Positions 207 to 24,499 of a stretch of DNA of 53,801 nt are shown here, piece after piece. The notes below the pieces were generated by a model, which saw nothing but the letters and a program-made list of their open reading frames with translations, did not search any database and was not told the DNA's origin. Source of the stretch: a virus; IMG/VR virus record IMGVR_UViG_3300028786_000011, positions 1 through 53,801 of that record. One strand, 5' to 3'. Numbering within the stretch: the first letter of the stretch is position 1; each line of letters begins with the position of its first letter. The translations under genes were made by a program, and so were the position numbers.

Positions 207-368
207 TCAGAGTTTCTCCCCGGATTGATCGTCTGAAACCACTGGATATTTGGCGGTTCTGTCGGCGCGAAACTGCCGAACCGCAGAGCGCATCCCGAGA
301 CCATAGCCGATCACGGTTCCAAAGAGTCCACCGACAACGATGCCGATGCAAAACCAAACGAAAGTCAT
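207..368 (-). CDS. small single-pass membrane protein, 53 aa
   Basis: A 53-residue reading frame begins with a hydrophobic, glycine-rich segment (about residues 4-26, FVWFCIGIVVGGLFGTVIGY) and ends in a charged tail. Its ATG overlaps the integrase stop codon (ATGA at 365-368), so it is probably translationally coupled as the last gene of the integrase operon. I do not recognise the family. The 80 bases between it and attL hold nothing I can identify. Confidence 0.6.
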   Translation of the reverse strand: MTFVWFCIGIVVGGLFGTVIGYGLGMRSAVRQFRADRTAKYPVVSDDQSGEKL

Positions 369-1471
369 GCGATCTCCCGGTTGTTCGGCCGCGCGGTCTC
401 GCGCCAACGCGCCTTGATGTACTTCTCGGTCGTGGCCGCGGTGGCGTGGCCGCAGAGCTGCTGAATGTCCTTGATAGGCGTGCCGTCGAGCCACATGTCG
501 GTGGCCCCTTTGCCCTTGAGATCGCGCAGCCCGAACGAGGGCATGTTCGCCAGCGGGCCGCCAGTCTTCGCGTGCGCCGCGCGCACCTTGTCCTGCGCCT
601 GGCGAAGCATCGAGCACAGGCCGTCGTAGGTATAGGCGGTGCCGGCCAGCGTGTGCAGGATCGGTTGGTGAAGCTGCGGCACCTCGCCGATCGCTTCGGC
701 GACCAGGGCGCCGAGCTCGCCGGTCAGCGCGATGTCGATCAGCCGCTTCGTCTTCGACTGCCGGAAGTGCAGCACCTTGCCGCCGTCCTTGTGCCGCACG
801 TTCGCAGGCGTCCAGGCGAGCAGGTCCACCTCGGGCCGCTGCAGTGTGCGGTATTCCAGTTCCATGGCCAAGCGCACCGCCCGGTTGCCGGCGTCGTAGA
901 CGGCGCGGTACTCGGCGTGCGTGACGTAGCGCTCGCGCTGCTTCTCCGGGTTGCGCCGCACGCCGCTGGCGCGCATGCAGGGGTTCACAGAGAGCACGGC
1001 GGCCGGCACCTTGCCCTCGCGGATCATCCACGACAGGCAACTCGACAGGAACGCGCGCTCGCGGTTCGCAGGCACCGGCCGCGGCGGCTTGAGACTGGCG
1101 TTGAAGGCGAGGTAACCCTGCACATGGTTCGGCTCGATCTTCTCCGGGAAGCGCTTGCCGAACGCGGCCATCAACGGCCCGGTCTCGTCGGCATAGCCGG
1201 TGTAGTCGTCGAGCGTGCGCTGGCTCAGCGTCTTCGCCGCGACGCGCAGTTTGCAGTCGGCCAGGAACATGCGGAACCAGTAGGCCATGGTACCGAGGCC
1301 GTCGCCCGGGTTGTTGTACCGCGCGGCAGCCTGCTTGGCGGCCACCACATCGGTGCCGACGTTCTCCCACTTGCCGGTCTCGCGGTGGATGTAGAAGAAG
1401 CGGCCGCGGTCGAAGGCCAGCCGAGTGCCGGCCAGGCCGAGCGGGTCACCGTCCTTGCGTTTTCTGCCCAT
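365..1471 (-). CDS. int: tyrosine recombinase (phage integrase)
   Basis: This 368-aa site-specific recombinase should catalyse integration at, and excision from, the tRNA-Asn att site. The family catalytic set is visible: R212 in QRPEVDLL, K240 or K242, R316, H342 in CGHAT and nucleophile Y351 in TEKYI. Box II reads FGLR (313-316) where most members have HxxR, so the usual first histidine is replaced. I chose the ATG at 1471 (MGRKRKDG) because GGAAGG stands just upstream; the longer frame to 1603 begins with low-complexity shadow sequence. The start lies inside the DUF4224 gene, a common integrase arrangement in proteobacterial prophages. Confidence 0.93.
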   Translation of the reverse strand: MGRKRKDGDPLGLAGTRLAFDRGRFFYIHRETGKWENVGTDVVAAKQAAARYNNPGDGLGTMAYWFRMFLADCKLRVAAKTLSQRTLDDYTGYADETGPLMAAFGKRFPEKIEPNHVQGYLAFNASLKPPRPVPANRERAFLSSCLSWMIREGKVPAAVLSVNPCMRASGVRRNPEKQRERYVTHAEYRAVYDAGNRAVRLAMELEYRTLQRPEVDLLAWTPANVRHKDGGKVLHFRQSKTKRLIDIALTGELGALVAEAIGEVPQLHQPILHTLAGTAYTYDGLCSMLRQAQDKVRAAHAKTGGPLANMPSFGLRDLKGKGATDMWLDGTPIKDIQQLCGHATAATTEKYIKARWRETARPNNREIA

Positions 1472-1703
1472 TGCGCGCCTTCCGTCCTGCTGCCCACCCC
1501 TGGAGATCGACGACGATACTCGCATCGCCCTGGCGGCCATCCTGGTCGTTCTGGACGGCAGGGCGCCAGGCCAGCGGCCGGCCGTTCGGCTTGCGATCGA
1601 CACGCAGGCCCAAGCGTCGCAGGAACCGGATCTTCGCGGCGTCCTGCGTGAGGCCTTCGGTCATCTCTTCGACCTCGGCATCGCTGAAATAGGCCTGTGA
1701 CAT
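1446..1703 (-). CDS. DUF4224 family protein, possible excisionase
   Basis: This 85-aa protein begins MSQAYFSDAEVEEMTEG and continues with the family pattern of a helical N-terminus followed by QDAAKIRFLRRLGL and a DRKPNGRPL strand region. DUF4224 proteins are usually encoded directly before a tyrosine integrase in prophages of beta- and gammaproteobacteria. Here the gene overlaps int by 26 bases. That position suggests a recombination directionality or DNA-binding role, which is inference; no function is shown by the sequence alone. Confidence 0.82.
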   Translation of the reverse strand: MSQAYFSDAEVEEMTEGLTQDAAKIRFLRRLGLRVDRKPNGRPLAWRPAVQNDQDGRQGDASIVVDLQGWAAGRKARNGQKTQGR

Positions 1704-3649: not shown

Positions 3650-4747
3650 TCACGCCGCTGCCGCGGGTAGCGCCTGCGGCGCGGCGGGGATGGGCATCCA
3701 GTGCGTGACGCCCCAGCAGCCGGTAGCGTCACCGTCCGCGTTCTGGTACGACTCGTCCATCCAAACAGTGCTCATGTCGTCGCGTCGATACCCGAAGCAG
3801 AAGCCCTCGGCGCGATAGAACATCACGCGCTCCTTCACGTCCGGGAGCCGGTCCTCTATGCTGATCCACATCGACGCCAAGGAATCAAGCGGCAGCGTGG
3901 TGGACGCAGCATCAACAGGATGAGCAGAACCCTCGTTCGGCCCCACCCCTGCAAGTGCTGCGCGAGCGTAGGTGAGCATTTGCGCTGCGGTGAATATCGC
4001 GTAGCCGTTGTACTTCTTGAACTCGCTCGGCGGGATCACGATCGAACCGTGCGAAGTCATCGCGCAATACCCGTCCGGCTCTGGCAGTGGCGGCAGGACA
4101 GCAGTCTCTTCTCCCTGTTCCCGCAGAAGTGGGACGAACACGGCCCGCAGTTCGGCAATCACCATGTTTAGGGTGTAGTCGTCATCGCGCTTCCAGCGCT
4201 CAAGCACTGCTAGAACCATATCTCGCTCAGGTTTGCTCGGCTCCAGCTGTTCCCCCGCAGCGAGCCACTCAAACGCCGCACGCACAGCCTTGTAGTCTTG
4301 GGTCGGCACGTAGACCATTTCGGAGTGCATGTTCGGCCCCCACGATTTCAGCAACTGCTCGTTGGGGTCGCTTTCGAGGTACAGCGTCAGCTTCCTCGCG
4401 CCGCGCCACCATTCAAACGTGGCGTTGCCGTGCTCGTCTTCACCGACGTGCGGATTCGGAAGTCGGGCTGGGGCGGCGTACATGGGCTCGCTCTCCACGA
4501 TCAGCGGGTCAAAGCCAGGCATTGATGCAGCGTGCCGCCAAGTGCGGTCTGAGCCTGCCAGAAAGCGCCAGCGCCACGCCACCGGCTGCTGTTCCCCTGC
4601 AGCAAGGGTGCGGACCTCTGCCTCTATGGCTCGGGCGAACGCGGGCCATCTGAAAGTGTTGGGGCTGGACCCGAACCAAAACTCGGACTTGATCGCAAGT
4701 TCTTCGATCCGCTCATCCGTCAGCAGGGCCGGCGCCTTGGGGCTCAT
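3650..4747 (-). CDS. DUF551-containing hypothetical protein, 365 aa
   Basis: The C-terminal 75 residues form a DUF551 module: MWISIEDRLPDVKERVMFY, then an aromatic/acidic segment and the closing VTHWMPIPAAP. The N-terminal 270 residues contain other accessory modules separated by linkers. The biochemical role of DUF551 is not known to me. The start overlaps the stop of the next upstream gene (ATGA). The DNA coding the C-terminus is nearly duplicated in the gene at 6131-6823. Confidence 0.7.
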   Translation of the reverse strand: MSPKAPALLTDERIEELAIKSEFWFGSSPNTFRWPAFARAIEAEVRTLAAGEQQPVAWRWRFLAGSDRTWRHAASMPGFDPLIVESEPMYAAPARLPNPHVGEDEHGNATFEWWRGARKLTLYLESDPNEQLLKSWGPNMHSEMVYVPTQDYKAVRAAFEWLAAGEQLEPSKPERDMVLAVLERWKRDDDYTLNMVIAELRAVFVPLLREQGEETAVLPPLPEPDGYCAMTSHGSIVIPPSEFKKYNGYAIFTAAQMLTYARAALAGVGPNEGSAHPVDAASTTLPLDSLASMWISIEDRLPDVKERVMFYRAEGFCFGYRRDDMSTVWMDESYQNADGDATGCWGVTHWMPIPAAPQALPAAAA

Positions 4748-5963: not shown

Positions 5964-6134
5964 ATGGAACAGCCAAAGAACCCAGGCGGCAGGCCGCCAA
6001 AGCCCGATTCAGAGCGCCGCGTCCAGCGGTCTATCCGTTTACTTCCGCGCCACTGGGAGAAGATCGATGCGGCAGGCAAAGAGGCATTCGAGGCGTACAT
6101 AGATCGTTGGAGAGCCAAACCACCAGCCGGCTAA
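5964..6134 (+). CDS. ribbon-helix-helix-like small DNA-binding protein, 56 aa
   Basis: The 56-aa product begins MEQPKNPGGRPPKPDSERR and continues RVQRSIRLLPRHWEKID, a layout like small Arc/CopG-type repressors: a basic Gly/Pro arm, a short strand (VQRSIRLL) and two helices. No ribosome site is visible. A TATACT -10 box ends 7 bases before the ATG, so the mRNA may be leaderless. It is the only plus-strand gene in the left 13 kb and ends 4 bases inside the convergent DUF551 gene. Autoregulation through the 11-bp repeats is inference. Confidence 0.55.
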   Translation: MEQPKNPGGRPPKPDSERRVQRSIRLLPRHWEKIDAAGKEAFEAYIDRWRAKPPAG

Positions 6135-6823
6135 CCCATCGACCCTGCGCCATCAGCGCTCACCGATTGGGATTCTGTTGATGCGCGGTGGGTGGGTTCT
6201 GCTAATGAGGTAGAGGCTTCGTTCACGTCGCTGCCGCTCATTTGCGCCTGCGGCGCGGCGGGGAGTGGCATCCAGTGCGTGATGTGCTCGAACTCGTTGT
6301 CTGACCAGCCGCACCCGGTCACGATGGTCGGACCACCCATCCCGGTTGGGTCTTCGCGCTGCTCGGCCCACATCTCAACTGCGGCGTATGGCTTGTCAGC
6401 CCATGTCGGCGTGGCAATCCACACCAGCACCTCGACATCCGGATCCGGTAGCCGATCCTCGACGCTGACCCACATCGACACCAAAGAAGCCAGCGCCGCC
6501 AGCTTGTCATTGATGAGGATGGCCGCTTGGTTCCTGATCGCGGGCGCCTCGTCGTTGAGGCTGGTGATCCATGAGCGAAGCGACTCCAGGCGAGTGCGCA
6601 GACCTTCGGCAGTAGCACCCGGTTCAGAAACAAGCGGCAGCGGGGCGCCGCCACTTGCGACAGAATGAACAGAACCAATCGGGGGATTGGCTGCCTCTAC
6701 TTCGACAAGAGCTGCAGCAGCGCGGAGAGCCATGATGAATGCGTTCCGAAATTCATGGCTATCGAACGGGTTTGGTATCGCTCTAATCTTTTCAGCCAGG
6801 GTAGGGATAGGGGTGTCGTCCAT
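6131..6823 (-). CDS. DUF551 family hypothetical protein, 230 aa
   Basis: Residues about 110-195 are a DUF551 module with MWVSVEDRLPDPDVEVLV near its start and HITHWMPLPAAPQA near its end, like the module in the gene at 3650-4747. The N-terminal half is a helical region plus a low-complexity linker. CCGGAG lies upstream of the ATG. It is the last gene of the recombination operon and ends 4 bases into the convergent gene at 5964-6134. Role unknown. Confidence 0.7.
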   Translation of the reverse strand: MDDTPIPTLAEKIRAIPNPFDSHEFRNAFIMALRAAAALVEVEAANPPIGSVHSVASGGAPLPLVSEPGATAEGLRTRLESLRSWITSLNDEAPAIRNQAAILINDKLAALASLVSMWVSVEDRLPDPDVEVLVWIATPTWADKPYAAVEMWAEQREDPTGMGGPTIVTGCGWSDNEFEHITHWMPLPAAPQAQMSGSDVNEASTSLAEPTHRASTESQSVSADGAGSMG

Positions 6824-8943: not shown

Positions 8944-9599
8944 CAGGCCATCTCCACCACGCGCGCGTGAGTACGATCGAACTCGGCGACGACCTCGGCG
9001 TAGTACCGACGCGCGTGCAGAATCTTGTCGAAGATCGCCGCTTCCTTGTCCAGATCTCTGGCGAGGGACCAGGTCGTAACGCGCATGTACTCCGGGATGT
9101 GGTCGACGAAGTGCATCGTCTGCGGCTCATAGCCGATGAGGTGCTCCGGCGTGTTGACGAGGCAGTAGTTCACCTCCCATGCCTGCGCATCCCACAGTGC
9201 CATGTAGCCGCGCATCTGCCATTCGTAGATCTTGTCTTCGCAGTCGACGTTCGCGATCGGGAACGTGGCGACCGACCAAGATGCTTTGACGTCATGCCCC
9301 CGACGAGCGCCGGTGTCGAACAGATCGGCCTCGCCGGTGATGAAGTCGTTCGTCTTGCGCTCGGTGTTCTTGACCAGAGAAAGGCCACGCGTGCGGTTCA
9401 GCAACGCAATGGCGTCGCCCTCGACGATCTTTCCTTTCTCCATCTGCTTGCTTCCGACCTCGAAGTCGACGCCGAACACCTCTTGCGCGACGAGCTCGCG
9501 GATGTACGTCTTCGCGCCGACAGACAGGACTTCGGACTTCAGCTTTGGCTCGGTCATCAGTTTGCCGATCGACGAGCAGCGGAACTTGACGGCACTCAT
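8943..9599 (-). CDS. phage exonuclease, PD-(D/E)XK (lambda Exo/YqaJ type)
   Basis: The 218-aa protein contains the ordered motifs of a YqaJ/lambda-exonuclease nuclease: a conserved glutamate in KGKIVEGDAIALL, GEADLF, then HDVKASWS (the D-x-K pair), followed by a YEWQMRGYMAL helix. It should resect double-strand ends to give 3' single strands for the annealing protein encoded just upstream. The start at 9599 overlaps the erf stop (ATGA), implying coupled synthesis of the pair. Confidence 0.82.
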   Translation of the reverse strand: MSAVKFRCSSIGKLMTEPKLKSEVLSVGAKTYIRELVAQEVFGVDFEVGSKQMEKGKIVEGDAIALLNRTRGLSLVKNTERKTNDFITGEADLFDTGARRGHDVKASWSVATFPIANVDCEDKIYEWQMRGYMALWDAQAWEVNYCLVNTPEHLIGYEPQTMHFVDHIPEYMRVTTWSLARDLDKEAAIFDKILHARRYYAEVVAEFDRTHARVVEMA

Positions 9600-10357
9600 C
9601 GCGTAGCCCTCGCGTCTGCATCGGTCGCGACCTTGCGCATGCCGCCGAACTCCTTGGACCACTTGCCGCGCTGCTTTGCATTGAGTGAAGCCCACCACTT
9701 CGTCAGCGCATCGCTGCCCTGCATGCTGGCGTCGCGGCCGGCCTGAAGGAACTTCTCGTCCTCCTCGCTGGCGCCGGCCTTCTGCGTGTTGCCGTCGGTG
9801 TCGTCGCCTTGTTCGGCAACTCCGAGGACGGCCTTCAGGGTGTAGCGCTCCAGGAAGGTCTGTGTGCTGGCGCGAGCCTGCAGCGCGCTCTTGGCGCCGC
9901 CAACATCCGGGGGGCCACCCATCGACACGGATTCGAAGTAGCCGGCCGCATGCTTCAGCGTGCAGGTGATCTCGATCCAGTCCTTGTCGTCCTTGGTGAG
10001 CCTCCAGGACGTGGACAGCCCATGTTTGGACAGCGCGGGAGTGACCGCGTTGACGACCGCGAACAGTTCGGCGTACTTGCCGCCGGCGAGCGGGCCTTGT
10101 TGGACCGTCTTGTTCTTGATGATCACGACCGCTTCGGCCTTGAAGGCAGCGAACGCGACGTTGTAGAGCTTCTTCGCCTCGCGCTCTTCGTACTGGACCT
10201 GCATCGCCATGAGGCGCTCCAGGCGGTCCAGATCGGCGCCGCTGTCGATCGCGATGCGCAGAAGATCGGCGGGCGTGGTTCCGGTGGTGGAGACGGCGTA
10301 GCGCGGCTCGGCCTTCGGTTGCTCGACGAGTTCAAGAACTTGTGCTTCAGCGGTCAT
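9596..10357 (-). CDS. erf: Erf-family single-strand annealing protein
   Basis: Residues about 60-175 carry the ERF superfamily pattern: LYNVAFAAFKAEAVVI, KYAELFAVVNAVTPALSKHG, then the FESVSMGGPPDV region. The C-terminal part (from about 190) is a linker plus a basic WWASLNAKQRGKW helix. Erf rings anneal complementary strands and allow circularisation and recombination of phage DNA. GAAAGAG precedes the ATG. It pairs with the exonuclease gene downstream. Confidence 0.88.
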   Translation of the reverse strand: MTAEAQVLELVEQPKAEPRYAVSTTGTTPADLLRIAIDSGADLDRLERLMAMQVQYEEREAKKLYNVAFAAFKAEAVVIIKNKTVQQGPLAGGKYAELFAVVNAVTPALSKHGLSTSWRLTKDDKDWIEITCTLKHAAGYFESVSMGGPPDVGGAKSALQARASTQTFLERYTLKAVLGVAEQGDDTDGNTQKAGASEEDEKFLQAGRDASMQGSDALTKWWASLNAKQRGKWSKEFGGMRKVATDADARATR

Positions 10358-11201: not shown

Positions 11202-11230
11202 AATGTAGCAAAGTAGTTTGTTAAACGCAA
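11202..11230 (-). promoter_or_regulatory. PL-like promoter of the recombination operon
   Basis: Minus-strand TTGCGT (complement of 11225-11230) is followed after 17 bases by TACATT (complement of 11202-11207). The spacer is largely one 14-bp repressor operator, and a second operator overlaps the -35 box, so repressor binding would block polymerase. The first gene starts about 35-40 bases downstream. Confidence 0.6.
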
Positions 11231-11240
11231 GAAGATTTGT
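11208..11240. promoter_or_regulatory. OL: two 14-bp repressor operators
   Basis: GCAAAGTAGTTTGT (11208-11221) and GCAAGAAGATTTGT (11227-11240) share the half-sites GCAA and TTGT around a 6-base centre, with centres 19 bp apart. The same pattern occurs three times at 13400-13462 between the repressor and cro genes. The left cluster lies on the PL promoter, as lambda OL does. Confidence 0.65.
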
Positions 11241-11260
11241 GCGAATCTGCGGCGAACGTG

Positions 11261-11283
11261 AAAAAGCCCGCGCACGGCGGGCT
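11261..11283 (-). terminator. Rho-independent terminator after methyltransferase gene
   Basis: On the minus strand the 7-bp stem AGCCCGC/GCGGGCT (arms 11265-11271 and 11277-11283, loop of 5) is followed by a run of five T (A11261-A11265). It stands 18 bases after the stop of the methyltransferase gene and before the OL/PL region, so it should end the leftward cI transcript. Confidence 0.82.
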
Positions 11284-11301
11284 ACGTTGAAGTTCGTCTT
11301 C

Positions 11302-12558
11302 CTACGTGCTGAGCCTGATCGCTTCGACGGCGATACCCAGGTCGCGAGAATCCCCAATGGGATTGAAGAAGCTCGCGAGCCTGCTGGATTCGGCCGTGAT
11401 CTCCAGCACGGGCCCGCGCGCTGGCACCGTGATGCGTTCGCGCTGCCCGGACTTGAAGCGCATCGATGTGCGTCCCTCTCCGCATCTCAGCTCGACATCG
11501 CGAGCAGACAAGTGGTTGATCAGCTGCAGCTCGACAGCTTGCACGCCGGCCGGCACGGGGAACACGGCGCGGCCAGACGTCCAGCGATGAGTGCCCTCTG
11601 ACGCGTGCCACCCGCTGCCGCCGTGGGCTTCGAATAGGTACGGCGTCTGCATGCCGATGTCTTCGTCCAGTGGCGTCGGCGTGGCCATGTAGCACGCCCC
11701 GCGGCCGGTGACGGGGCAGGGACTGTGCGTCACCAGGAACCCGGAGCGCATCAACCGCTCGACGAAGTACGGGTGCTGGAAGCCCAGCTCGCACCAGCCG
11801 AACTTCCGCGTCGAGCGAACAGAGATGCCATCAAGTCGCGGCCCCCAAGGGAATGGCACGAATGAATTGCCTACCTCGACGATCGGCTCGCCGGCGAACA
11901 GGATGAAGCCGCCAGGCGCAAGCATGGGCCTGAGTTTTTCCAGCACCGCGGCATGGTCGAAGGCGTGGTGAAATGCTTCGAAGAACAGGATGCGATCGAA
12001 CTTGCGGTCGCGCACGGCGTCGCCGAACTGACCCTTCTGCAGCTCGATCTTGATCTGCAGGCTGTCGCACTGGGCCTGCACTGCCGCGAGGTAGCGTTCG
12101 TCGATGTCGACGATGGCGACTTCGCAGCCCATGCGAGCAAGCTGGATCGACAGCTGGCCTTCGCCGGCGCCGTACTCAAGCACGCTGGCGCCGGCGCGCA
12201 CGTCGAGGTTGCGCAGTATCCAGCCCCACGACAGCATGAAGTCTGCGACTGTGGCACTGTCGCCGTACTGGTAGGGCGTCGGAGCGGAGACGGCACGCGC
12301 CGTGTCCACATAGGGCGTGCGTTCGTTGACCCATGGGTCGTAGTCGGTCACCGCAGCCAGGTCGGAGTAGAGCCGCTTCGCTTCAGCCGCGTACTCCGGT
12401 GAGAACGGGTCCAGGCGCTGGAGCTCGGGCGTTCTGGGGTTGTCGGCATACACGCCGCACATCGTGCGGGCTGCTTCGAATGCGGGTTGAGTTTGTTCGG
12501 CCTGCTCGCAGTAGGCCAGCAGGGCATCCACGCTCTGCAACTTGATGGGTTCGGTCAC
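11302..12558 (-). CDS. SAM-dependent methyltransferase in the rex position
   Basis: A 418-aa protein with a GTG start. Residues about 120-235 form a class I methyltransferase domain: motif I VLEYGAGEGQLSIQLA, acidic loop VAIVDID, then ILFFEAFHHAFDH and a GGFILFAGEP strand. The last ~130 residues look like a beta-sandwich (AVELQLINHLSARDVELR). The closest style is methyltransferases acting on surface glycans, but the substrate is unknown. It lies downstream of the repressor gene with no terminator between, and ends at a strong terminator, so it should be made in the lysogen. Lambda has rexAB here. Confidence 0.75.
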   Translation of the reverse strand: MTEPIKLQSVDALLAYCEQAEQTQPAFEAARTMCGVYADNPRTPELQRLDPFSPEYAAEAKRLYSDLAAVTDYDPWVNERTPYVDTARAVSAPTPYQYGDSATVADFMLSWGWILRNLDVRAGASVLEYGAGEGQLSIQLARMGCEVAIVDIDERYLAAVQAQCDSLQIKIELQKGQFGDAVRDRKFDRILFFEAFHHAFDHAAVLEKLRPMLAPGGFILFAGEPIVEVGNSFVPFPWGPRLDGISVRSTRKFGWCELGFQHPYFVERLMRSGFLVTHSPCPVTGRGACYMATPTPLDEDIGMQTPYLFEAHGGSGWHASEGTHRWTSGRAVFPVPAGVQAVELQLINHLSARDVELRCGEGRTSMRFKSGQRERITVPARGPVLEITAESSRLASFFNPIGDSRDLGIAVEAIRLST

Positions 12559-12581
12559 AGGGTGGGCACCTTCTATGGTTG

Positions 12582-12821
12582 CTAGACGTCGGAATCGACA
12601 CCGATGATCTTAAGGCCGAGCTTCAGATGCAGCGCGCCGACAGCGGCGTGCGCCAGCGCCGGCCTGCGGCGGGCCTCGCCTGCGGAGTTCACCCAGAAAT
12701 TACCGCGCTTCAGTATCGCGGCGAATGACACGCCGACAATCCTTCCAGCCTTGGCCTCCTCCAGTAGCTGCGTGAGACATTCGACTGTGTCGGCGGACAG
12801 GGCGTCCGGCTGCAATCTCAT
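12582..12821 (-). CDS. conserved prophage hypothetical protein, 79 aa
   Basis: The product starts MRLQPDALSADTVEC and contains LLEEAKAGRIVGVSFAAIL and a FWVNSAGEARRRP turn, a pattern I associate with small prophage proteins of unknown role. It overlaps the repressor stop by 4 bases and should be co-transcribed with it, so it is probably expressed in the lysogen. Confidence 0.65.
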   Translation of the reverse strand: MRLQPDALSADTVECLTQLLEEAKAGRIVGVSFAAILKRGNFWVNSAGEARRRPALAHAAVGALHLKLGLKIIGVDSDV

Positions 12822-13399
12822 TTGGCCCTCCGTCCGCGCTGCACGGGGGCCGGTGGAGGGAGGAGGGTGTCACGCGGCTCGATCGGTGCCGCTGGCTCAG
12901 CTTGCGCGGAAATCCGCGGTGCCGGTGGCGGCACCATGTGCTCAGATATTTCGTCTGGGATCGGTGAGGCTCGGGAGGGCTTGACCGCTCGAAACAAGTG
13001 CTCGGCATGCTTGCGCATCAGCGTCGCGCGCTCCGAGACCTCCTTCCTGTAGCGCGCACGTTCCTCTGGCAGCAGTGCATTCAAATCTTCGATGAACTGG
13101 CGTTCTTCTGCTGTGAGCTGCTGCGCCTCCTGGAGGCTGGGCGCTTTAAGCGGCGCGGGCGTGTAGTGCATGCCGGCACTGGATTCTCCGAGCTTGGGCG
13201 GCATCTGCAGCGCGAGCAGCGCATCGGCGGATGTACCCATCGCGCGGGCCAGGGCGGCCATGTAGCGCGGCTGCTTGGTCTTGCCGCTCTCCAACTGCTG
13301 GATCTTCTGGTAGGCGATGCCGACTCGCTGAGCAAGTTCGAGCTGCGTCAGGCCCGAGGCCTTTCGCCAAATCTTGACCAGTTCTCCAAGTGATTCCAT
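12818..13399 (-). CDS. CI-like HTH (XRE) repressor, 193 aa
   Basis: Residues 5-65 are an XRE helix-turn-helix domain: LVKIWRKASGLTQLELAQRV, GIAYQKIQQLESGKT and a TSADALLAL end. The remainder is a helical segment (about 95-145) and a Pro-rich tail. There is no S24/LexA-type peptidase, so RecA-driven self-cleavage is not expected and induction must work another way. I took the ATG at 13399, which abuts the first operator; the longer frame runs through the operators. Position opposite a Cro-like gene and between two operator clusters identifies it as the phage repressor. Confidence 0.85.
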   Translation of the reverse strand: MESLGELVKIWRKASGLTQLELAQRVGIAYQKIQQLESGKTKQPRYMAALARAMGTSADALLALQMPPKLGESSAGMHYTPAPLKAPSLQEAQQLTAEERQFIEDLNALLPEERARYRKEVSERATLMRKHAEHLFRAVKPSRASPIPDEISEHMVPPPAPRISAQAEPAAPIEPRDTLLPPPAPVQRGRRAK

Positions 13400-13462
13400 G
13401 CAAATGATTTTGCTGGACTTGCGAACAAGATCATTTGTGCCGTAAACTACAAACATTCTTGT
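13400..13462. promoter_or_regulatory. OR: three repressor operators and divergent promoters
   Basis: Three 14-bp dyads lie 25 and 24 bp apart: GCAAATGATTTTGC (13400-13413), ACAAGATCATTTGT (13425-13438) and ACAAACATTCTTGT (13449-13462). All fit RCAA-N6-TTGY, as do the two OL sites. A plausible PR has TTGCGA (13419-13424), an 18-base spacer holding the middle operator, and TAAACT (13443-13448). I could not place PRM with confidence. The first operator abuts the repressor start codon, which suggests autoregulation. Confidence 0.7.
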
Positions 13463-13477
13463 TTTTGGCGCACGATC

Positions 13478-13741
13478 ATGACCCCACTCGAAGCCCTTCT
13501 GAAAGCCGTTGAGGTTCTCGGGAGTCAGAAGGCAGTCGCAGCGGCGGCCGGCGAAAACCTCGCCACGGGCCACGTCTATTACTGGCTGACCAAGGCTCCG
13601 GAGGTGCCAGCGCAGTACTGCCCGGGGATCGAACGGGCTACGCGTGCCAAGGGCGAAACGGTCTTCTGCGAGCAGCTCTGTCCGGGGACGGACTGGAGCG
13701 CAGTGCGAACCCAAGACGGCCCCGCTCTGCAGGTTGCCTGA
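13478..13741 (+). CDS. cro: Cro-like YdaS-family regulator
   Basis: The 87-aa product reads MTPLEALLKAVEVLGSQKA, then GHVYYWLTKAPEVPAQYC and PGIERATRAKGETVFCEQL, ending TDWSAVR. This is the YdaS/Cro layout: a helix-turn-helix with the YYWL recognition region followed by a PAEYCP-like segment. It is the first gene rightward from PR and divergent from the repressor gene, so it should bind the same operators to commit to lytic growth. Confidence 0.85.
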   Translation: MTPLEALLKAVEVLGSQKAVAAAAGENLATGHVYYWLTKAPEVPAQYCPGIERATRAKGETVFCEQLCPGTDWSAVRTQDGPALQVA

Positions 13742-17630: not shown

Positions 17631-18473
17631 ATGCGCAGCATCCTCGTCACGGGCGGTTCGGGCTACTTTGGCCACGGCTTCGTCCGTGCCGCACTTGATC
17701 GAGGTGCTGAACGTGTCTGCGTGTTCTCGCGCGGCGAGTACCAGCAGTCTCTGATGCGCAAGGAGTTCAACGATGACTCGCGGCTTCGGTGGCTCATCGG
17801 AGACGTGAGAGACGCCAACCGCCTCGAAGAAGCGTTTGAGGGAATCGGCTTGGTCGTCCATGCTGCAGCCCTCAAGCGCATCGAGGTGGGGTTCTACAAC
17901 CCGGACGAGATGTTCGCCACCAACATCGACGGCACACGCAACGTGATCCGCGCGGCGAAGCGCGCAGGCGTGCGAAAGGTCATTGGCCTGTCCTCCGACA
18001 AGGCCTTCGAACCGTGCAGCGCCTACGGCATCAGCAAGGCCGGCGCCGAGTGCCTGATGCTGGCCGCGAACAACACACGCGGCGCGTCGGGGCCGATCTT
18101 TGCTGCGGTGCGCTACGGCAACGTCTGGAACAGCACCGGCTCGATCGTGCCGACTTGGCGCGCGCGCATCGCCAACGGCGGGGCTGACCTGCCGGTGACC
18201 GACCCGGACTGCACGCGCTTCTTCATGCGGCGCGACGAAGCGGTCGACCTGGTGCTGAAGACGGCCGAGACCATGCGCGGCGGCGAGCTGGCGATCCCCG
18301 CACTGCCAGCGTTCCGTGTGGGCGACCTCGCCGAAGCATTCGGTTTGCCGATGTCGGAGATGGGCTTGTCCGCTTTCGAGAAGAAGCATGAATCAATGGG
18401 CCACGGAAACAGCAGCGACCGCGCGCGGCGCATGTCGGTGGCCGAACTGCAGGAGGCGCTTTGTGAAGCATGA
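17631..18473 (+). CDS. pseB: PseB-like UDP-GlcNAc 4,6-dehydratase
   Basis: A 280-aa short-chain dehydrogenase-type sugar enzyme. TGGSGYFG (7-14) is the NAD(P)-binding loop. SSDKAFEPCSAYGISK (121-136) supplies D123, K124, Y132 and K136 at the spacing of inverting dehydratases of the FlaA1/PseB group. RYGNVWNSTGS (161-171) and CTRFFMR also follow that group. The family removes water from UDP-GlcNAc to give a 4-keto-6-deoxy sugar, the first pseudaminic acid step. It is shorter than typical PseB (about 330 aa). It starts five bases after the preceding gene and overlaps the aminotransferase. Confidence 0.82.
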   Translation: MRSILVTGGSGYFGHGFVRAALDRGAERVCVFSRGEYQQSLMRKEFNDDSRLRWLIGDVRDANRLEEAFEGIGLVVHAAALKRIEVGFYNPDEMFATNIDGTRNVIRAAKRAGVRKVIGLSSDKAFEPCSAYGISKAGAECLMLAANNTRGASGPIFAAVRYGNVWNSTGSIVPTWRARIANGGADLPVTDPDCTRFFMRRDEAVDLVLKTAETMRGGELAIPALPAFRVGDLAEAFGLPMSEMGLSAFEKKHESMGHGNSSDRARRMSVAELQEALCEA

Positions 18474-19122
18474 CGAGCCAAAGTGGCCGCGGTGGATTGC
18501 GAAGCCACACGACGTGACTCGTGCATTTGAGGACGCCTTGTGCGAGTACACAGGCGCTCGATTCGCGGTGACAACAACTTCGTGCACCCAGGCGATCCTC
18601 ATGGCGCTGGCGTGGCATCGGCAGACAACGCACTTCGAGTCCCCTTACATCAGCGTCTCGATGCCGCGTCTGTCCTACGTCGGCGTGCCGGCTGCCATCC
18701 TGAACGCTGGCTATCGCCGCGTGAACTTCCGTGATGAGGACTGGCAGGGAGAGTACGAGTTCGGCGAGGATGGCGCCGGCGTCTGGGATTCGGCTCGCCG
18801 CTTCACCAGTGGCATGTACCGCTCCGGTGCGATGCAGTGCATCTCCTTCCACGCCGCCAAGGTGCTCGCCGACACCCAGGGCGGCGCCATCCTCCACGAC
18901 AACCCCGAAGCCGATGCATGGCTGCGCCGCGCGCGCTTCGACGGCCGCACCGAAGGCGTCGACCCGAAGGACGATCAGGTTCAGCTCCCTTCGTGGCACG
19001 CCTACCTGAGCCCCGATGTAGCCGCGCGGCTGCTGTGGCGTCTTCCTGCGCTGCCCAAGCACAACCCGGATCTGCCGAGGTCCGACTACCCCGATCTTTC
19101 AACGATGAAGGCCTTTCAATGA
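18463..19122 (+). CDS. minimal DegT/PseC-like aminotransferase, 219 aa
   Basis: GTG at 18463 with AGGAGG 6 bases upstream. The product has the PLP-domain elements of DegT/DnrJ/EryC1 enzymes: an ARFAVTTTSCTQAILMAL start, D109 in VWDSARRF, and the Schiff-base lysine K133 in CISFHAAKVLADTQGGAI. It lacks the C-terminal domain; family members are about 370-390 aa. It may be a reduced functional enzyme or inactive. In the pathway it would aminate the 4-keto sugar made by the neighbouring dehydratase, which is inferred from context. Confidence 0.7.
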   Translation: MKHDEPKWPRWIAKPHDVTRAFEDALCEYTGARFAVTTTSCTQAILMALAWHRQTTHFESPYISVSMPRLSYVGVPAAILNAGYRRVNFRDEDWQGEYEFGEDGAGVWDSARRFTSGMYRSGAMQCISFHAAKVLADTQGGAILHDNPEADAWLRRARFDGRTEGVDPKDDQVQLPSWHAYLSPDVAARLLWRLPALPKHNPDLPRSDYPDLSTMKAFQ

Positions 19123-19280
19123 ACATCCATGCCCCCGAAAGACAGCCAGGAGAAACGCAGGCCGAGTACCGTCAACGTCGGGCTCGATCACACGCGGCAG
19201 TCGAAATCGCCATTGGTGGCAAAGCACCGAATGTGCTGGACCGCCTTCGCAAGGCGTTCATGAAAATCGCAGCGAAATGA
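19119..19280 (+). CDS. small basic phage protein, 53 aa
   Basis: Starts MNIHAPERQPGETQAEY in ATGA overlap with the aminotransferase gene and ends NVLDRLRKAFMKIAAK, a basic helix. It interrupts the sugar genes but is overlapped on both sides, so it is translated within the same operon. Unknown function. Confidence 0.55.
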   Translation: MNIHAPERQPGETQAEYRQRRARSHAAVEIAIGGKAPNVLDRLRKAFMKIAAK

Positions 19281-19657
19281 GCAATCCCCTCGAGGGCCGC
19301 GAGTTCCGCAGCGACCTGGACATGCAAGTCGTCGCGCGAGACAAGGCCGTCTTCCTGCTGTTCAGCCGCACCGCGAACGACTCCGGCGAGAAAGTCCCCG
19401 CGCTGACCGACAACATGGTCCTGGCACCGGAGACTGCCCTGATGGCATCTCAGGCCCTGGCAGACATGGCGTACGAAGCCGACGACGGTTTGAAGATGCC
19501 CCAAGCCGCGAAACTCGCGATGGTCGAGAAGCATCGTGCCGTGTTGCTCCCGCGGCTGACCGTGATGCTGAACAGCCTCAGGGAGAACAAGGTGGTCGGC
19601 AACGAGCAGCTGGCCCGCCAAGCGCTTGACGCCTTCTGCGCTGAGGTCTTCTCGTGA
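19277..19657 (+). CDS. hypothetical phage protein, 126 aa
   Basis: Starts MSNPLEGREFRSDLDMQ, with a strand-rich N-terminus (VVARDKAVFLLFSRTAND) and a helical remainder (LMASQALADMAYEADDGL). Four-base overlaps on both sides. I see no sugar-enzyme motif; it looks like an ordinary phage gene between pathway genes. Confidence 0.58.
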   Translation: MSNPLEGREFRSDLDMQVVARDKAVFLLFSRTANDSGEKVPALTDNMVLAPETALMASQALADMAYEADDGLKMPQAAKLAMVEKHRAVLLPRLTVMLNSLRENKVVGNEQLARQALDAFCAEVFS

Positions 19658-20232
19658 CCCTCCCGCGCCGCACGGCCATCATCCCCGCAAGAGGTGGAAG
19701 CCAGCGCATCCCCCGGAAGAACATCAAGCCGTTCTTCGGCAAGCCGATCATCTGCTACAGCATCGAGACCGCTCGCGCCTCGGGCCTGTTCAACCTGATC
19801 CTGGTCAGCACCGACGACGACGAGATCGAGGAGATCGCACTCGCCGCCGGCGCGGTGGTGATGCGCCGCAAGTACGACGACGGCACCCAGGGTACCCAGG
19901 AGGTAGCGCAGAAGGTGCTGGAGCAGATGCCCGATGTCAAGACGGCCTGCGTGATCTACGCGACGTGCCCGCTCCTGGCCCCCCGAGACCTCGCTGCCGG
20001 CCTCGTCGCGCTGGGCTACCCCAACAAGCAGTTCGCCATGTCGGTTGATCCGAACGGCAGGGACGCGGGATGCTTCTACTGGGGCAAGGCGGACGCCTTC
20101 CGCGATGACCTGAAGCTGGACGCGCCGCACACCGCACGTGTCGAACTGCCGGCGAGTCGGGTTTGCGACATCAATTTTCCGAGCGACTGGGCTCGGGCCG
20201 AATCCATGTACCAAGCCTTGAGGAGGGCATAG
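19654..20232 (+). CDS. pseF: PseF/NeuA-like CMP-nonulosonate cytidylyltransferase
   Basis: GTG start at 19654. The CTP-binding signature IIPARGGSQRIPRKNI (9-24) is that of PseF/NeuA/NeuN enzymes. YATCPLL (102-108), AMSVDPNGRDAG and the closing CDINFPSDWARAESMY (171-186) follow PseF, where the end is D-x-x-x-x-x-DW. The enzyme would activate the nonulosonic acid with CTP to CMP-sugar, the donor for transferases. At 192 aa it is shorter than the usual ~230 aa. A homing endonuclease gene follows immediately. Confidence 0.85.
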   Translation: MTLPRRTAIIPARGGSQRIPRKNIKPFFGKPIICYSIETARASGLFNLILVSTDDDEIEEIALAAGAVVMRRKYDDGTQGTQEVAQKVLEQMPDVKTACVIYATCPLLAPRDLAAGLVALGYPNKQFAMSVDPNGRDAGCFYWGKADAFRDDLKLDAPHTARVELPASRVCDINFPSDWARAESMYQALRRA

Positions 20233-20233
20233 C

Positions 20234-20737
20234 GTGGTTTGCGAAGCGACTATCGAGCCCACAGAAACGGAGCTTCACCGCGCTGCCGCATGGTGGGCTG
20301 GTGAAGGCTCTGTCAATGGCCTGAAGCGCCGTCTGTCAGTCACCTTCTCCCAGAAAGAAGTGTGTGTGTGCCACTGGTTTCTCGATCGGTTCGGTGGGTC
20401 TGTGTATACACGGCCAGCCAAAGGAACTAAGAAGGAATGCTCGACTTGGGCGGCGTCGGGCCAACGCGCACGGGCATTCTTGCTGGCGATCGTCGAATTG
20501 ATCCCAGAGTCGCCTCGTCGACAGGAGCAGATTCGCGTGGCCCTGGCAGCAACGGAGGGTGACAGACGGCGCGGCCCTAAGCCGGTGGCGACATGCCTGC
20601 GTGGTCACACGAAGACAGCCGGGCGCTGCAAAGAATGCAATGTCATATGGAGAGCAAGCACTCGCGCCAAGCCTGAGGTTGCCCAGCGGCATCGCGAGCG
20701 CGAACGTGATCGGTATCAACAGAGGAGAGCGACTTGA
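20234..20737 (+). CDS. LAGLIDADG-type homing endonuclease with zinc finger
   Basis: The 167-aa GTG-start protein has one AAWWAGEGSVNG motif corresponding to LAGLIDADG helix 1, then SVTFSQKEVCVCHWFLDRFG, GSVYTRP and a FLLAIVELIPESPRRQEQI helix as in single-motif homing enzymes. A CLRGHTKTAGRCKECN zinc finger follows near the C-terminus. The coding DNA is less GC-biased than its neighbours, suggesting recent entry. It fills the gap between pseF and the methylase gene without breaking either. Confidence 0.72.
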   Translation: MVCEATIEPTETELHRAAAWWAGEGSVNGLKRRLSVTFSQKEVCVCHWFLDRFGGSVYTRPAKGTKKECSTWAASGQRARAFLLAIVELIPESPRRQEQIRVALAATEGDRRRGPKPVATCLRGHTKTAGRCKECNVIWRASTRAKPEVAQRHRERERDRYQQRRAT

Positions 20738-21318
20738 GAACAGAGGACTTTTGGAGCGGCCGCTTCGGTGACGAATATCTGGCCAGGAATCGCGTCGAGT
20801 GGGAAGCGCGCGTCCCCTTCTGGCAATCCGCCATCGACTTCATGGAGCCCGGGTCGATGCTCGAGGTCGGTTGCAATGCCGGGTGGAACCTGCGCGCGAT
20901 CCAATCGATCCAGGCCGACATCGACCTGTACGGCGTCGACATCAACGCATCGGCTGCCGAAGAAGCGCGCCAAGCCGGCTTCGAGGTGCGGGTGCTGGGT
21001 GCCCAGGGCATCGTCGGCCTGCACGAACCCGGAAGCATCGACTGCGTCTTCACGGCCGGCGTGCTGATCCACGTTGCTCCCGAGGACATCGAGGCCACGA
21101 TGCGCCAGATCATCGCGGTCAGCGGGCGCTACGTGCTGGCGATCGAGTACATGGCCGACCAGGAAGAAGCGCTCGACTACCGCGGGCACACCGGCAAGCT
21201 GTGGAAGCGTCCCTTCGGAGCGATGTACCAGCAGATGGGGCTGGTGCTGCTGTCCGAGGGGGTGGCGGGGGGCTTCGATCAATGCGGTTACGCCTTGCTC
21301 GAACGGGCGCAGACATGA
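20734..21318 (+). CDS. pseudaminic acid biosynthesis-associated methylase
   Basis: TTG start in overlap with the preceding TGA, with AGAGGAGAG upstream. The 194-aa product has the N-terminal FWSGRFGDEYLARNR segment typical of the Pse-associated methylase family, class I motif MLEVGCNAGWNL (42-53) and YGVDIN (66-71), then a VLIHV post-motif. Members lie in nonulosonate clusters and are thought to methylate the sugar or its amidino group. The substrate here is inference. Confidence 0.8.
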   Translation: MRTEDFWSGRFGDEYLARNRVEWEARVPFWQSAIDFMEPGSMLEVGCNAGWNLRAIQSIQADIDLYGVDINASAAEEARQAGFEVRVLGAQGIVGLHEPGSIDCVFTAGVLIHVAPEDIEATMRQIIAVSGRYVLAIEYMADQEEALDYRGHTGKLWKRPFGAMYQQMGLVLLSEGVAGGFDQCGYALLERAQT

Positions 21319-21479
21319 AGGAGTTCATATTCCTGGTGAGCGCGATCTTGCTGCAAGGGCTTGCGTTCGGAATGGGCTGCATCGCGCTGTGGAACAAGGA
21401 CTGGCCACAGGCGCAGGCTTGGCTGCTCGCCGACGCGGTGCTGACGCTGTCCACCATCAGCCTGAGGATCAAACGATGA
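21315..21479 (+). CDS. small two-helix membrane protein, 54 aa
   Basis: Starts MKEFIFLVSAILLQGLAF and continues with a second hydrophobic segment (WLLADAVLTLSTISL) after a short WNKDWPQ loop. Overlaps both neighbours by 4 bases. It sits between two sugar-modification genes. It could be an inner-membrane partner, but nothing in the sequence demonstrates that. Confidence 0.55.
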   Translation: MKEFIFLVSAILLQGLAFGMGCIALWNKDWPQAQAWLLADAVLTLSTISLRIKR

Positions 21480-22534
21480 GCCTCCTTCGATGCGCGAGAT
21501 GCGTGATGCCGAACACCCGGCCAGACACGCCATTCATCGACGGCGTCTGCTCAGCCTGCCTGAGCTACGACCGCCGCCCCACGATTGACTGGGATGAGCG
21601 CAAGGCCGCGCTGCTGGCGCTGCTGGACCGCCATGACGGTCGCTGCATCGTGCCGAGCTCCGGCGGCAAGGACTCCACCTACCAGGTGCTGACCTTGCTC
21701 GAGCTCGGCGCCGACGTGACCGTGGTGACCGCACGGACCTGCCACCTCACGCCGGTCGGCCGCGCGAACATCGACAACCTCGCGCGCTACGCCAGGACGA
21801 TCGAGGTCGTGCCGAACATGACGGTTCGGGCGAAGCTCAATCGGTTGGGGCTGGAGCTGGTCGGGGACATCAGTTGGCCGGAGCACGCTGCGATCTTCCG
21901 GACGCCAGCCCGCGCGGCCGCACAACTGAACATCCCGCTGATCTTCTACGGCGAGAACCCGCAGAACCAGTACGGCGGCCCGCTTGGGAGCGACGAGGCG
22001 CAGCAGATGACGGCTCGCTGGGTCAGCGAGTACGGAGGCTTCCTCGGTCTGCGCGCGACGGACTTCATCGGCATGGAAGGCATCACACCGCAGGACATGG
22101 CGGACTACCAGCCCCTGAACAGCGAAGAGATGCACGCATTTCACCCAGAAGCCCACTTCCTCGGGCAGTACCTGCCATGGGACAGCCGCCGGAATGCCGA
22201 CATCGCGATCGAGCACGGCATGCAGGCGGCTCTACCCAGCGCAGCGAACTGGTGGAAAGCCGAGAACCTCGACAACGCTCAGACCGGCATCCACGATCAC
22301 TTCATGTGGCTCAAGTACGGCTTCGGCCGCGGCTGCCAGCAGATCAGCGTGGACGTGCGAGCTGGGCTGGTGAAACGCGAGCATGCACTGGTGTGGGTGG
22401 ACGCCAACGATTGGATCTTCCCAGACGACTACGCCGGTGTGCCCATCGCCGAAGTCCTGGATCGCATCGGTGTCAGTACCGAGAAGTTCAAGGAACTGAT
22501 GCAGCAGTTCACCGACAAGGCGGTGCATTCATGA
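21476..22534 (+). CDS. PseA/WbpG-type N-acetyl sugar amidotransferase
   Basis: A 352-aa protein with an N-terminal zinc site (C6, C9, C25, C28 in LRCARCVMPNT and CSACLSY) and a PP-loop ATP-pyrophosphatase motif SSGGKDSTYQ (61-70). Further family blocks are YGENPQNQYGG and LGQYLPWDSRRNADIA. These enzymes, with HisH/HisF-type subunits supplying ammonia, turn an acetamido group of nonulosonic or uronic sugars into acetamidino. The HisF-type gene is at 23368, but no glutaminase is seen. Translation is coupled to its neighbours by ATGA overlaps. Confidence 0.85.
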   Translation: MSLLRCARCVMPNTRPDTPFIDGVCSACLSYDRRPTIDWDERKAALLALLDRHDGRCIVPSSGGKDSTYQVLTLLELGADVTVVTARTCHLTPVGRANIDNLARYARTIEVVPNMTVRAKLNRLGLELVGDISWPEHAAIFRTPARAAAQLNIPLIFYGENPQNQYGGPLGSDEAQQMTARWVSEYGGFLGLRATDFIGMEGITPQDMADYQPLNSEEMHAFHPEAHFLGQYLPWDSRRNADIAIEHGMQAALPSAANWWKAENLDNAQTGIHDHFMWLKYGFGRGCQQISVDVRAGLVKREHALVWVDANDWIFPDDYAGVPIAEVLDRIGVSTEKFKELMQQFTDKAVHS

Positions 22535-22899
22535 AGACATGCAGCAAGTGCAGAGTGCCAAAGCCTCTCGTTGACTTCTATGTGGACAAAAGTAAGTTGG
22601 ATGGTCATCAATATGCGTGTAAAGAGTGCCGCCGTATACGCAGCCATCGAAAGAGGAGCGCGGGTGAAGAGGTACATCGTAAGAGTTGGCTACTTCTGCC
22701 GAAGACAACAGAACAGAACCGCAAGAAGCGCCGACGCCGGACATTGAAACTGGCCGATTGGTACATCCGGAAAAAGCTGCGCGACGCGGGGTTCACTGCG
22801 CCGATATGCCCCGGCCTCATAGATCTCAAGCGCGAGCAACTGATCCTGCGCCGGCTCGCGAAACAGCTGAAGCAGGCAATAACCGAAAGATCGAAATGA
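22531..22899 (+). CDS. zinc-finger basic protein, possible nuclease accessory
   Basis: The 122-aa product has CSKCRVPKPLVDFYVDK and YACKECRR, a C-x2-C pair twice as in small zinc ribbons of HNH/homing-associated proteins. A very basic middle (QNRKKRRRRTLKLADW) and helical end follow. Codon third positions are much less GC-rich than in neighbouring genes, a sign of recent acquisition. It is not a recognisable nuclease by itself. Overlaps the amidotransferase by 4 bases. Confidence 0.55.
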   Translation: MKTCSKCRVPKPLVDFYVDKSKLDGHQYACKECRRIRSHRKRSAGEEVHRKSWLLLPKTTEQNRKKRRRRTLKLADWYIRKKLRDAGFTAPICPGLIDLKREQLILRRLAKQLKQAITERSK

Positions 22900-23189
22900 A
22901 ACCATCACAGAACACCCTTGAATCACTGCAAGACATCAACCGCGTCGAGACTGCAGGCGACATCAGACGCATTGGCGCTCAGATGCTCCTCGCGCTGGCT
23001 CGCAAAGAGATCAGCGCCACCGACCTCGAAGCCGCAGCCAAGATGATCGATGCTCAAGCCAACAGCCTGAACGCAGAAGTCAAACTGGCGAAGGCGGCGA
23101 TCGAACTGCGCGAGCGTGGCGCCGACCTGGGCAAGGTGGTGCACATCGGCCGAACCTTGATCGGCACCCCTGATAAGGAGGCGGCATGA
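22896..23189 (+). CDS. hypothetical phage protein, 97 aa
   Basis: Starts MKPSQNTLESLQDINRV and is predominantly helical (RRIGAQMLLALARKEISA then AAKMIDAQANSLNAEV), ending VHIGRTLIG. It overlaps its neighbours at both ends. A small DNA- or protein-binding role is plausible, but no family is recognised. Confidence 0.55.
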   Translation: MKPSQNTLESLQDINRVETAGDIRRIGAQMLLALARKEISATDLEAAAKMIDAQANSLNAEVKLAKAAIELRERGADLGKVVHIGRTLIGTPDKEAA

Positions 23190-23368
23190 AAGACAACGAA
23201 ATGCATCAAGAATGCGTTCTGAGATGCTACGTGGCCCTTATTTCGGCGAGCCTGGCGGCAGGGGAGTACGGGCTGAGTGACTTGGCCTATCAAGATATGG
23301 CAACACGAGCGATCGAGATGGCCGACGCTTTAGAGAACGTAGTACTGTCTGGGCGCCGGCCGAAATAA
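23186..23368 (+). CDS. hypothetical protein, 60 aa
   Basis: Starts MKDNEMHQECVLRCYVAL with AAGGAGG upstream. The product is a short helical protein (DLAYQDMATRAIEMADAL). The HisF-type gene begins inside its stop codon (TAATG). Unknown function. Confidence 0.52.
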   Translation: MKDNEMHQECVLRCYVALISASLAAGEYGLSDLAYQDMATRAIEMADALENVVLSGRRPK

Positions 23369-24114
23369 TGCTGTGCAAACGTGTGATCCCGTCGATGCTG
23401 GTCCGCGGCCGCACCCTGGTCAAGGGCGAGCGCTTCAACAGCTGGCGCAGCATCGGCCACGCCGCCCAGGCCGCACGCATCCACGCTGCCCGGGGGGTCG
23501 ACGAGCTCATGATCCTCGACATCAGCGCGACCGCAGAGGGCAGGGGGCCGGACCTCGACCTGGTGCGAGAACTGTCCGAAGGCTGCTTCATCCCGATCAC
23601 CGTCGGCGGTGGCGTGCGGAGCCTGAAGGACATCGACGCGCTGCTGCGTGCTGGCGCGGACAAGGTGGCAGTGTGCACCTTTGCACTCGAACGCCCGACG
23701 TTTGTCAGCGAGGCTGCAGCAAGGTTTGGCGCGCAGGCGATTGTGGGGTGCGTGGATGTACGGCAGCCTGGATGGCCATGTTCGGAATCAGGCTCGCTCG
23801 CGTGGCACTTGTTCGGAGCACTTGTTTGGGCCAAAGCACTCGCCGATGCCGGAGCAGGCGAGATCCTGCTGACCAGCGTCGACCGTGACGGCACCATGGA
23901 AGGCTACGACCTCGACCTGATCCGTGAAGTCTCCACGGCAGTAGGCGTTCCGGTGATAGCCAGCGGAGGCTGCCGGGACTACGCTGACATGCTGGCCGCT
24001 TTCAAGGCTGGGGCGGACGCTTGCGCAGCTGGGGCCATGTTCGCATTCACTGATGCAACTCCGAGGGGGGCTGCTCAATTCCTCAAACGAAACAACATCG
24101 AGGTTCGAGTATGA
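23368..24114 (+). CDS. HisF2-type cyclase-like subunit of sugar amidotransferase
   Basis: The 248-aa (beta/alpha)8 protein follows HisF block by block: MLCKRVIPSM, GVDELMILDISAT, PITVGGGVRS, ADKVAVCT, AGEILLTSVDRDGTMEGYD and PVIASGGC. The N-terminal catalytic aspartate of true HisF (in ACLDV) is leucine here (L11 in PSMLV), while the second aspartate remains in GCVDV. The missing Asp fits the HisF2 group, which passes ammonia to sugar amidotransferases rather than making histidine. A glutaminase partner (HisH) was not found. Confidence 0.82.
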   Translation: MLCKRVIPSMLVRGRTLVKGERFNSWRSIGHAAQAARIHAARGVDELMILDISATAEGRGPDLDLVRELSEGCFIPITVGGGVRSLKDIDALLRAGADKVAVCTFALERPTFVSEAAARFGAQAIVGCVDVRQPGWPCSESGSLAWHLFGALVWAKALADAGAGEILLTSVDRDGTMEGYDLDLIREVSTAVGVPVIASGGCRDYADMLAAFKAGADACAAGAMFAFTDATPRGAAQFLKRNNIEVRV

Positions 24115-24407
24115 AGAAGCTGATTCTGTTGACCGTGGTCCTGCTGACCGGCTGCGGTACGTTCCCGCTCGGGGTGTCCTACCCCCAACAAGGCCAGACC
24201 CAGGCCCAGACCGACCAGAACATCCTGGTGTGCAAGGACCGCGCGAGGGACGAGGCCAACACCGACGCCCGCGTGGCCGGGTCGTTCGTCGCCGGCCTGA
24301 CCATCGTCGGCGCACCGATCGCGATTGCCGAGGAGCGCCGCAAGCAGCGTGAAGTCTTCGCTGCCTGCATGACGGAGCGCGGCTACAAAGTCGTGCCGCC
24401 CCAATGA
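24111..24407 (+). CDS. small lipoprotein, 98 aa
   Basis: A signal peptide with lipobox (MKKLILLTVVLLTGCGTF, Cys15) is followed by a Gln-rich segment and a conserved-looking CKDRARDEANTDARVAG, then a Gly-rich hydrophobic stretch (SFVAGLTIVGAPIAI) and a basic tail. The product should be exported and lipid-anchored. Its place among sugar genes is suggestive of envelope action, but phages often carry such lipoproteins. Confidence 0.68.
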   Translation: MKKLILLTVVLLTGCGTFPLGVSYPQQGQTQAQTDQNILVCKDRARDEANTDARVAGSFVAGLTIVGAPIAIAEERRKQREVFAACMTERGYKVVPPQ

Positions 24408-24499
24408 ACTGGAAAGACAACACCAACGCGGGCGGCTGGAAGGGCTCGGCGCTGATCCTGGTGCTGCTGGCCATCCTCGTGTGGGTTCTGTGGGAATGA
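24404..24499 (+). CDS. 31-aa membrane microprotein
   Basis: An ATG in overlap with the lipoprotein stop opens MNWKDNTNAGGWKGSALIL, which continues into one hydrophobic helix ending LVWVLWE-like residues. The stop overlaps the acetyltransferase start (ATGA). A short polar N-terminus with one membrane helix is all that can be said. Confidence 0.5.
   Translation: MNWKDNTNAGGWKGSALILVLLAILVWVLWE

Follow-up and report, generated by a model that had tools for sequence, protein, structure and literature searches.

A methyltransferase gene in the repressor operon of a temperate phage and its possible link to surface glycans

Two genes follow the repressor gene of the virus record IMGVR_UViG_3300028786_000011 and end just before a predicted left operator, which raises the question of whether they are expressed together with the repressor in the lysogen and what the larger of them, a methyltransferase, might modify there. 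The whole record of 53,801 bases was analyzed and is called the window in the following. Its termini carry a 126-bp direct repeat (1–126 and 53667–53792, 100% identity) that takes in the 3' part of a tRNA gene and ends 9 bases before the right terminus. In an Rfam search of the window this tRNA fragment at the right end (53751–53801) was the only match, and as its anticodon reads GTT by eye it would be a tRNA-Asn. We read the repeat either as the attL/attR pair of a provirus or as a circular overlap that is imperfect. Taken together, the end repeat with the tRNA, a weak tyrosine integrase match (365–1603, minus strand, E 1.8e-5, just under the curated cut-off) and the repressor/cro region identify the record as a temperate phage, and it is probably near complete. 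No DNA-level similarity to sequenced phages was found. The large terminase is nearest to that of Acidovorax phage AP1 (40%), followed by Bordetella phage BPP-1 (37%), the portal resembles podovirus head-tail connectors, and a related portal is present at 57 IMG/VR loci (36–82% identity), all of which is best explained by a temperate podovirus that has BPP-1 as a distant relative.

Two further observations concern the record as a whole. A protein of 2276 amino acids encoded at 42899–49729 (plus strand) carries the large polyvalent protein domains LPD37 and LPD22 and is perhaps an injected virion protein. A 39-bp direct repeat (3670–3708 and 6244–6282, 95%) lies within two minus-strand genes (3650–4747 and 6131–6823), and both genes match the same PHROGs, phrog_924 and phrog_60, to which no function is assigned there.

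The repressor operon itself has the lambda cI-rexAB-tImm-OL layout, with repressor, cargo, terminator and OL/pL following each other and the three genes on one strand (Table 1), so that the rexAB-like position proposed in the sequence-only reading was borne out. The stop codon of the repressor gene overlaps the start of the gene for a 79-aa protein by 4 bp (ATGA), and this gene is probably translationally coupled to the repressor, as judged from the overlap. Only 23 bp separate its stop from the start of the methyltransferase gene, which is too short for a terminator plus a promoter; the earlier claim that both genes lie behind the repressor with no terminator between them thus agrees with the gene junctions. 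Ribosome binding sites were found upstream of both genes (GGAGG for the 79-aa gene and AGAAGG for the methyltransferase, which starts with GTG), and the GC content at the three codon positions is coding-like for the methyltransferase (0.65/0.47/0.81) as well as for the 79-aa gene (0.68/0.45/0.78).

Table 1: Features of the repressor region and of the pseudaminic-acid cluster in the window.
Feature	Position	Strand	Evidence
OL operators GCAAAGTAGTTTGT (11208–11221) and GCAAGAAGATTTGT (11227–11240)	11208–11240		motif search
Intrinsic terminator, tImm-like, closing the repressor operon	11256–11288	−	fold −14.9 kcal/mol, z −2.36
Methyltransferase, 418 aa, class I SAM-dependent	11302–12558	−	Pfam, AlphaFold model, PDB fold matches, alignment
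79-aa orphan protein, between repressor and methyltransferase	12582–12821	−	ATGA overlap, GGAGG, coding-like GC3
Repressor, 193 aa, HTH_3 and Pro-rich tail	12818–13399	−	HTH_3 2.4e-9; PHROG transcriptional regulators/repressors
OR operators GCAAATGATTTTGC (13400–13413), ACAAGATCATTTGT (13425–13438) and ACAAACATTCTTGT (13449–13462)	13400–13462		motif search
Cro-like gene (YdaS/Cro family), first of the right operon	13478–13741	+	Pfam YdaS_toxin 1.1e-12; phrog_35 transcriptional repressor 1e-7
Erf-like ssDNA annealing protein, left (pL) operon	9596–10357	−	phrog_155 8.3e-33
PseB-like	17631–18473	+	6.5e-80
PseC-like aminotransferase, short	ends 19122	+	profile match
PseF-like	19654–20232	+	1.1e-51
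Pse-associated methylase TIGR03587	20734–21318	+	above cut-off
WbuX amidotransferase	to 22534	+	above cut-off by 0.7 bit
WbuZ, HisF-like	23368–24114	+	2.4e-71
GNAT-like acetyltransferase	24481–24891	+	Pfam E 0.003, below cut-off
PseI	to 25897	+	1.1e-99

The strong terminator that had been proposed before OL is indeed present, as a hairpin (AGCCCGC-CGTGC-GCGGGCT-TTTT on the minus strand) with a G+C-rich stem of 7 bp, a loop of 5 nt and a T run at about 11260–11283, with OL lying beyond it. An automatic terminator scan overlooked it, as the scan requires five T after the stem. When the isolated hairpin was compared with shuffled sequences, 4 of 200 shuffles were equally good. Both control regions share the operator motif RCAAN6TTGY, of which the window has seven copies where 1.9 would be expected, a number reached in none of 100 shuffles, although this raw probability is no independent test since the motif was derived from these very sites, and it is the clustering that counts as evidence: three copies lie between repressor and cro, two just past the terminator and two elsewhere in the 53.8 kb. 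We therefore regard the clustered copies as real, if predicted, operators that single out the two control regions and are nearly confined to them. A candidate pR (TTGCGA-18-TAAACT) and a candidate pL (TTGCGT-17-TACATT) each have an operator within the spacer. As a sigma-70 promoter scan of 10.3–14.4 kb gave zero matches, we infer the transcription of the repressor operon from its layout. Given that this layout is of the lambda type, both cargo genes are very probably expressed along with the repressor in the lysogen.

For the repressor, the earlier assignment as cI holds only in part, as the protein is a repressor with an HTH_3 domain but not a lambda CI-type protein with a LexA-type peptidase domain. 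An S24/LexA peptidase domain was not found in PHROGs, NCBIfam or Pfam searches, which detected the HTH only, and induction must therefore differ from that of lambda CI. The repressor start codon (ATG) directly adjoins the first operator of OR and lacks a ribosome site, so that the message may be leaderless, like that from lambda pRM. The 79-aa protein showed no relatives in Pfam, PHROGs, NCBIfam, PADLOC, phages, plasmids or viral contigs. Two marginal genome matches to it (E about 4e-4 to 6e-4) were inspected and judged to be due to chance.

The methyltransferase can be divided into an N-terminal helical part (residues 1–110), a Rossmann core (113–230), a family-specific part (230–295) and a C-terminal beta part (330–417). 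Pfam, NCBIfam and PHROGs alike assign the core to the class I SAM-dependent methyltransferases, with Pfam Methyltransf_25 matching at E 2.7e-14 (54 bits against a curated cut-off of 27), and its motif I reads VLEYGAGEGQ. The AlphaFold model (mean pLDDT 78, pTM 0.73) finds its nearest PDB folds among small-molecule O- and N-methyltransferases, with E values down to 2e-11. The C-terminal beta domain suggested earlier reappears in this model as seven predicted strands of low to moderate confidence. Taken on its own, this part showed a weak likeness to CBM6, CBM36 and CBM4 among other beta folds (E 0.0045–0.05, not significant), and above the cut-off Pfam recognized methyltransferase domains only. 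A possible recurrence of the domain in a membrane protein beside the Aurantimonas homologue described below was set aside as unproven, as a profile built without that protein gave E 0.32. Ten aligned family members have FFEAFHHA, PWGPRLDG-type and GW-ELGF-type motifs in common, which are not general methyltransferase motifs. There was no match to RexA or RexB in Pfam or PHROGs, no DNA methyltransferase family was among the 19 Pfam and 25 NCBIfam matches listed, and the sole PHROG match to a DNA methyltransferase had an E value of 0.55. By its profile and fold matches the protein is a class I methyltransferase and neither RexA or RexB, a DNA methyltransferase nor a known defence protein.

To which substrate class the enzyme belongs can be approached through its relatives, which are alphaproteobacterial chromosomal proteins. 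A peptide-pattern scan of 84,980 genomes gave eleven relatives, nearly all labelled Alphaproteobacteria, and by profile search the family turned up in 17 of 250 genomes from one order and in one of 398 others drawn from across the phylum. The only whole-length homologues found, which include the C-terminal domain, come from Aurantimonas aggregata (L002, 36% over the alignment) and Inquilinus limosus (L005, 33%), and both are located within O-antigen/glycan clusters. The former has a double GT4, a second methyltransferase, an ABC-2 exporter and a GDP-mannose 4,6-dehydratase as neighbours, the latter GT4 and GT2/GT4 glycosyltransferases. A further homologue (L004) adjoins an acyltransferase-3 gene, and two others (L119, L120) lie near genes that, read by eye, resemble those for capsule export or mannose-1-phosphate guanylyltransferase. 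Several homologues (L003, L004, L110, L112 and L118) end in an S(T)SWR-PLR tail, which we take to be associated with glycan-cluster enzymes. The glycan-enzyme style attributed to the methyltransferase is thus seen in the two whole-length homologues, whereas many others are isolated chromosomal genes amid housekeeping neighbours. Judged from this kinship a link of the enzyme to glycans is probable, and we consider a glycan to be its somewhat favoured substrate.

The homologues away from glycan genes are also what makes the strongest competing explanation worth weighing, namely that the enzyme is expressed in the lysogen but methylates a small molecule, a lipid, an RNA or a protein, with a metabolic or regulatory benefit to the lysogen. 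The class I core would allow this, as it matches a broad range of small-molecule and RNA methyltransferase models, but the only homologues that share the whole length of the protein sit in glycan clusters, and we therefore rate such a substrate as rather unlikely.

Among phages the gene seems to stand alone. No homologue was present among 50,697 phage records, peptide patterns found none in IMG/VR, plasmids gave nothing beyond one weak Rhizobium match, and none of 30 related viral records, many of them fragments, contains it, so the gene is dispensable to the lineage. In the two relatives with a placeable repressor (L082 and L070) other genes occupy the place behind it. As the gene is absent from the phages searched and different genes stand there in these relatives, the methyltransferase is cargo in a variable slot and seems to have been acquired as an accessory gene. 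The same absence bears on the idea that the 79-aa gene and the methyltransferase serve the lysis-lysogeny decision, for example as antirepressor or co-regulator, with the methyltransferase as a passenger. A repressor that has no self-cleavage domain and is probably coupled to the 79-aa gene would make a partner that allows induction necessary, but the 79-aa protein matches no regulator family (best PHROG E 0.24) and the methyltransferase is missing from all the related records searched, which makes this role improbable.

The phage also invests in sugar chemistry outside the repressor operon, which we count in favour of a glycan methyltransferase. On the right arm, between the replication genes and the terminase, a near-complete pseudaminic-acid/acetamidino-sugar cluster extends over 17631–25897 on the plus strand (Table 1). 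Several of its matches fall under the strict NCBI cut-offs, several proteins are shorter than the bacterial models, and a PseG hydrolase was not seen in the cluster. The gene order is kept in related IMG/VR contigs (e.g., L074, L081, L083 and L076), and PseI occurs in about ten distinct ones. Among the 50,697 sequenced phage records, PseI was matched in only three and WbuX in none, and a literature search of partial coverage found no report of phage pseudaminic-acid pathways. For phage sugar chemistry, the pathway of this lineage gives a stronger lead of its own and is arguably a better find than the methyltransferase. It might be that two glycan modules lie on opposite arms of the switch, the methyltransferase retouching the coat of the lysogen and the pseudaminic pathway acting in the lytic state, so that the surface would be remodelled in both states with different chemistry, but we regard this as unlikely.

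That the methyltransferase acts instead in the lytic cycle on a phage-made pseudaminic-type sugar might be suggested by the presence of this pathway on the lytic strand of the same phage, but the methyltransferase gene runs on the other strand as part of the repressor operon, on the far side of the terminator-OL boundary, the sugar cluster has a methylase of its own (TIGR03587), and relatives keep the cluster without the methyltransferase, all of which leaves this reading highly improbable. A role in internal anti-phage defence or epigenetics, by DNA methylation or as mad2 of the Methylation-Associated Defence System, is just as hard to credit: the PADLOC mad2 model does match residues 113–225 (E 3.3e-16), but only with 117 of its 492 positions (282–398), the generic SAM-binding core, so that the mad2 identity was rejected; PADLOC assigned no family to the 79-aa gene, only HTH/regulator models to the repressor and no MADS partner, no DNA methyltransferase family of Pfam was matched and the nearest folds are small-molecule methyltransferases.

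Our preferred reading is therefore that of accessory genes expressed in lysogeny, with a methyltransferase that O-methylates a surface glycan or its precursor and thereby alters the surface of the lysogen, and to this reading as a whole we give about an even chance. Both genes would be ‘moron’ genes, transcribed leftward together with the repressor from its promoter, and as the transcript would stop at the terminator before OL/pL, the cargo would be on while the lytic genes are off. With SAM as the methyl donor, the enzyme would O-methylate a sugar in the host surface polysaccharide or in a glycan precursor, which its C-terminal beta domain perhaps grips. The altered surface could then lower the adsorption of related phages, a form of lysogenic conversion; such a receptor change or superinfection exclusion, which the sequence-only reading had suggested, goes one step further and is put forward only tentatively. 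The sequence-only reading is thus borne out in what it observed and in part in how it was interpreted. If true, surface-sugar methylation would join the known ways in which prophages re-dress their host, with the repressor promoter guaranteeing expression in the lysogen. The placement of the gene also backs the slot between repressor and OL as a cargo site in phages that are only distantly related to lambda. A literature search of partial coverage brought up no prophage glycan methyltransferase reported from this slot.

The closest counterparts in function might be gtrABC and oac, the O-antigen conversion genes of P22-, Sf6- and epsilon15-like phages, in which enzymes of the prophage modify the glycan that serves as receptor. 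The action would be similar if the substrate of the methyltransferase is an O-antigen, whereas a methyl group instead of a glucosyl or acetyl group would be transferred, the slot is different and the operon has no GtrA/GtrB or acyltransferase partner. The closest counterparts in sequence, the methyltransferases of A. aggregata and I. limosus, share the full length including the C-terminal domain but belong to an unnamed family and are chromosomal genes inside glycan clusters, unlike the prophage gene described here. With regard to position, lambdoid phages commonly carry accessory genes in the slot from repressor to N, rexAB being one example (PMC7067206), and Pseudomonas phage Fc02 likewise has an accessory gene downstream of its repressor, inside the lysogen-transcribed region (PMC9936078). 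The slot is thus already known and the methyltransferase is the new cargo, as none of the other phages searched proved to carry it. The gene bstA of the Salmonella prophage BTP1 is another accessory gene behind cI in this slot, with the cI promoter driving its transcription (PMC7067206), but the methyltransferase is a different protein, with only methyltransferase domains recognized. Lambda rexAB differs in encoding a sensor and an ion channel instead of an enzyme, has no sequence relation to the genes described here and accompanies a LexA-type CI, which the present repressor is not; both systems share a location behind the repressor, on its strand and ahead of a terminator and OL/pL, and with it the expression expected in the lysogen.
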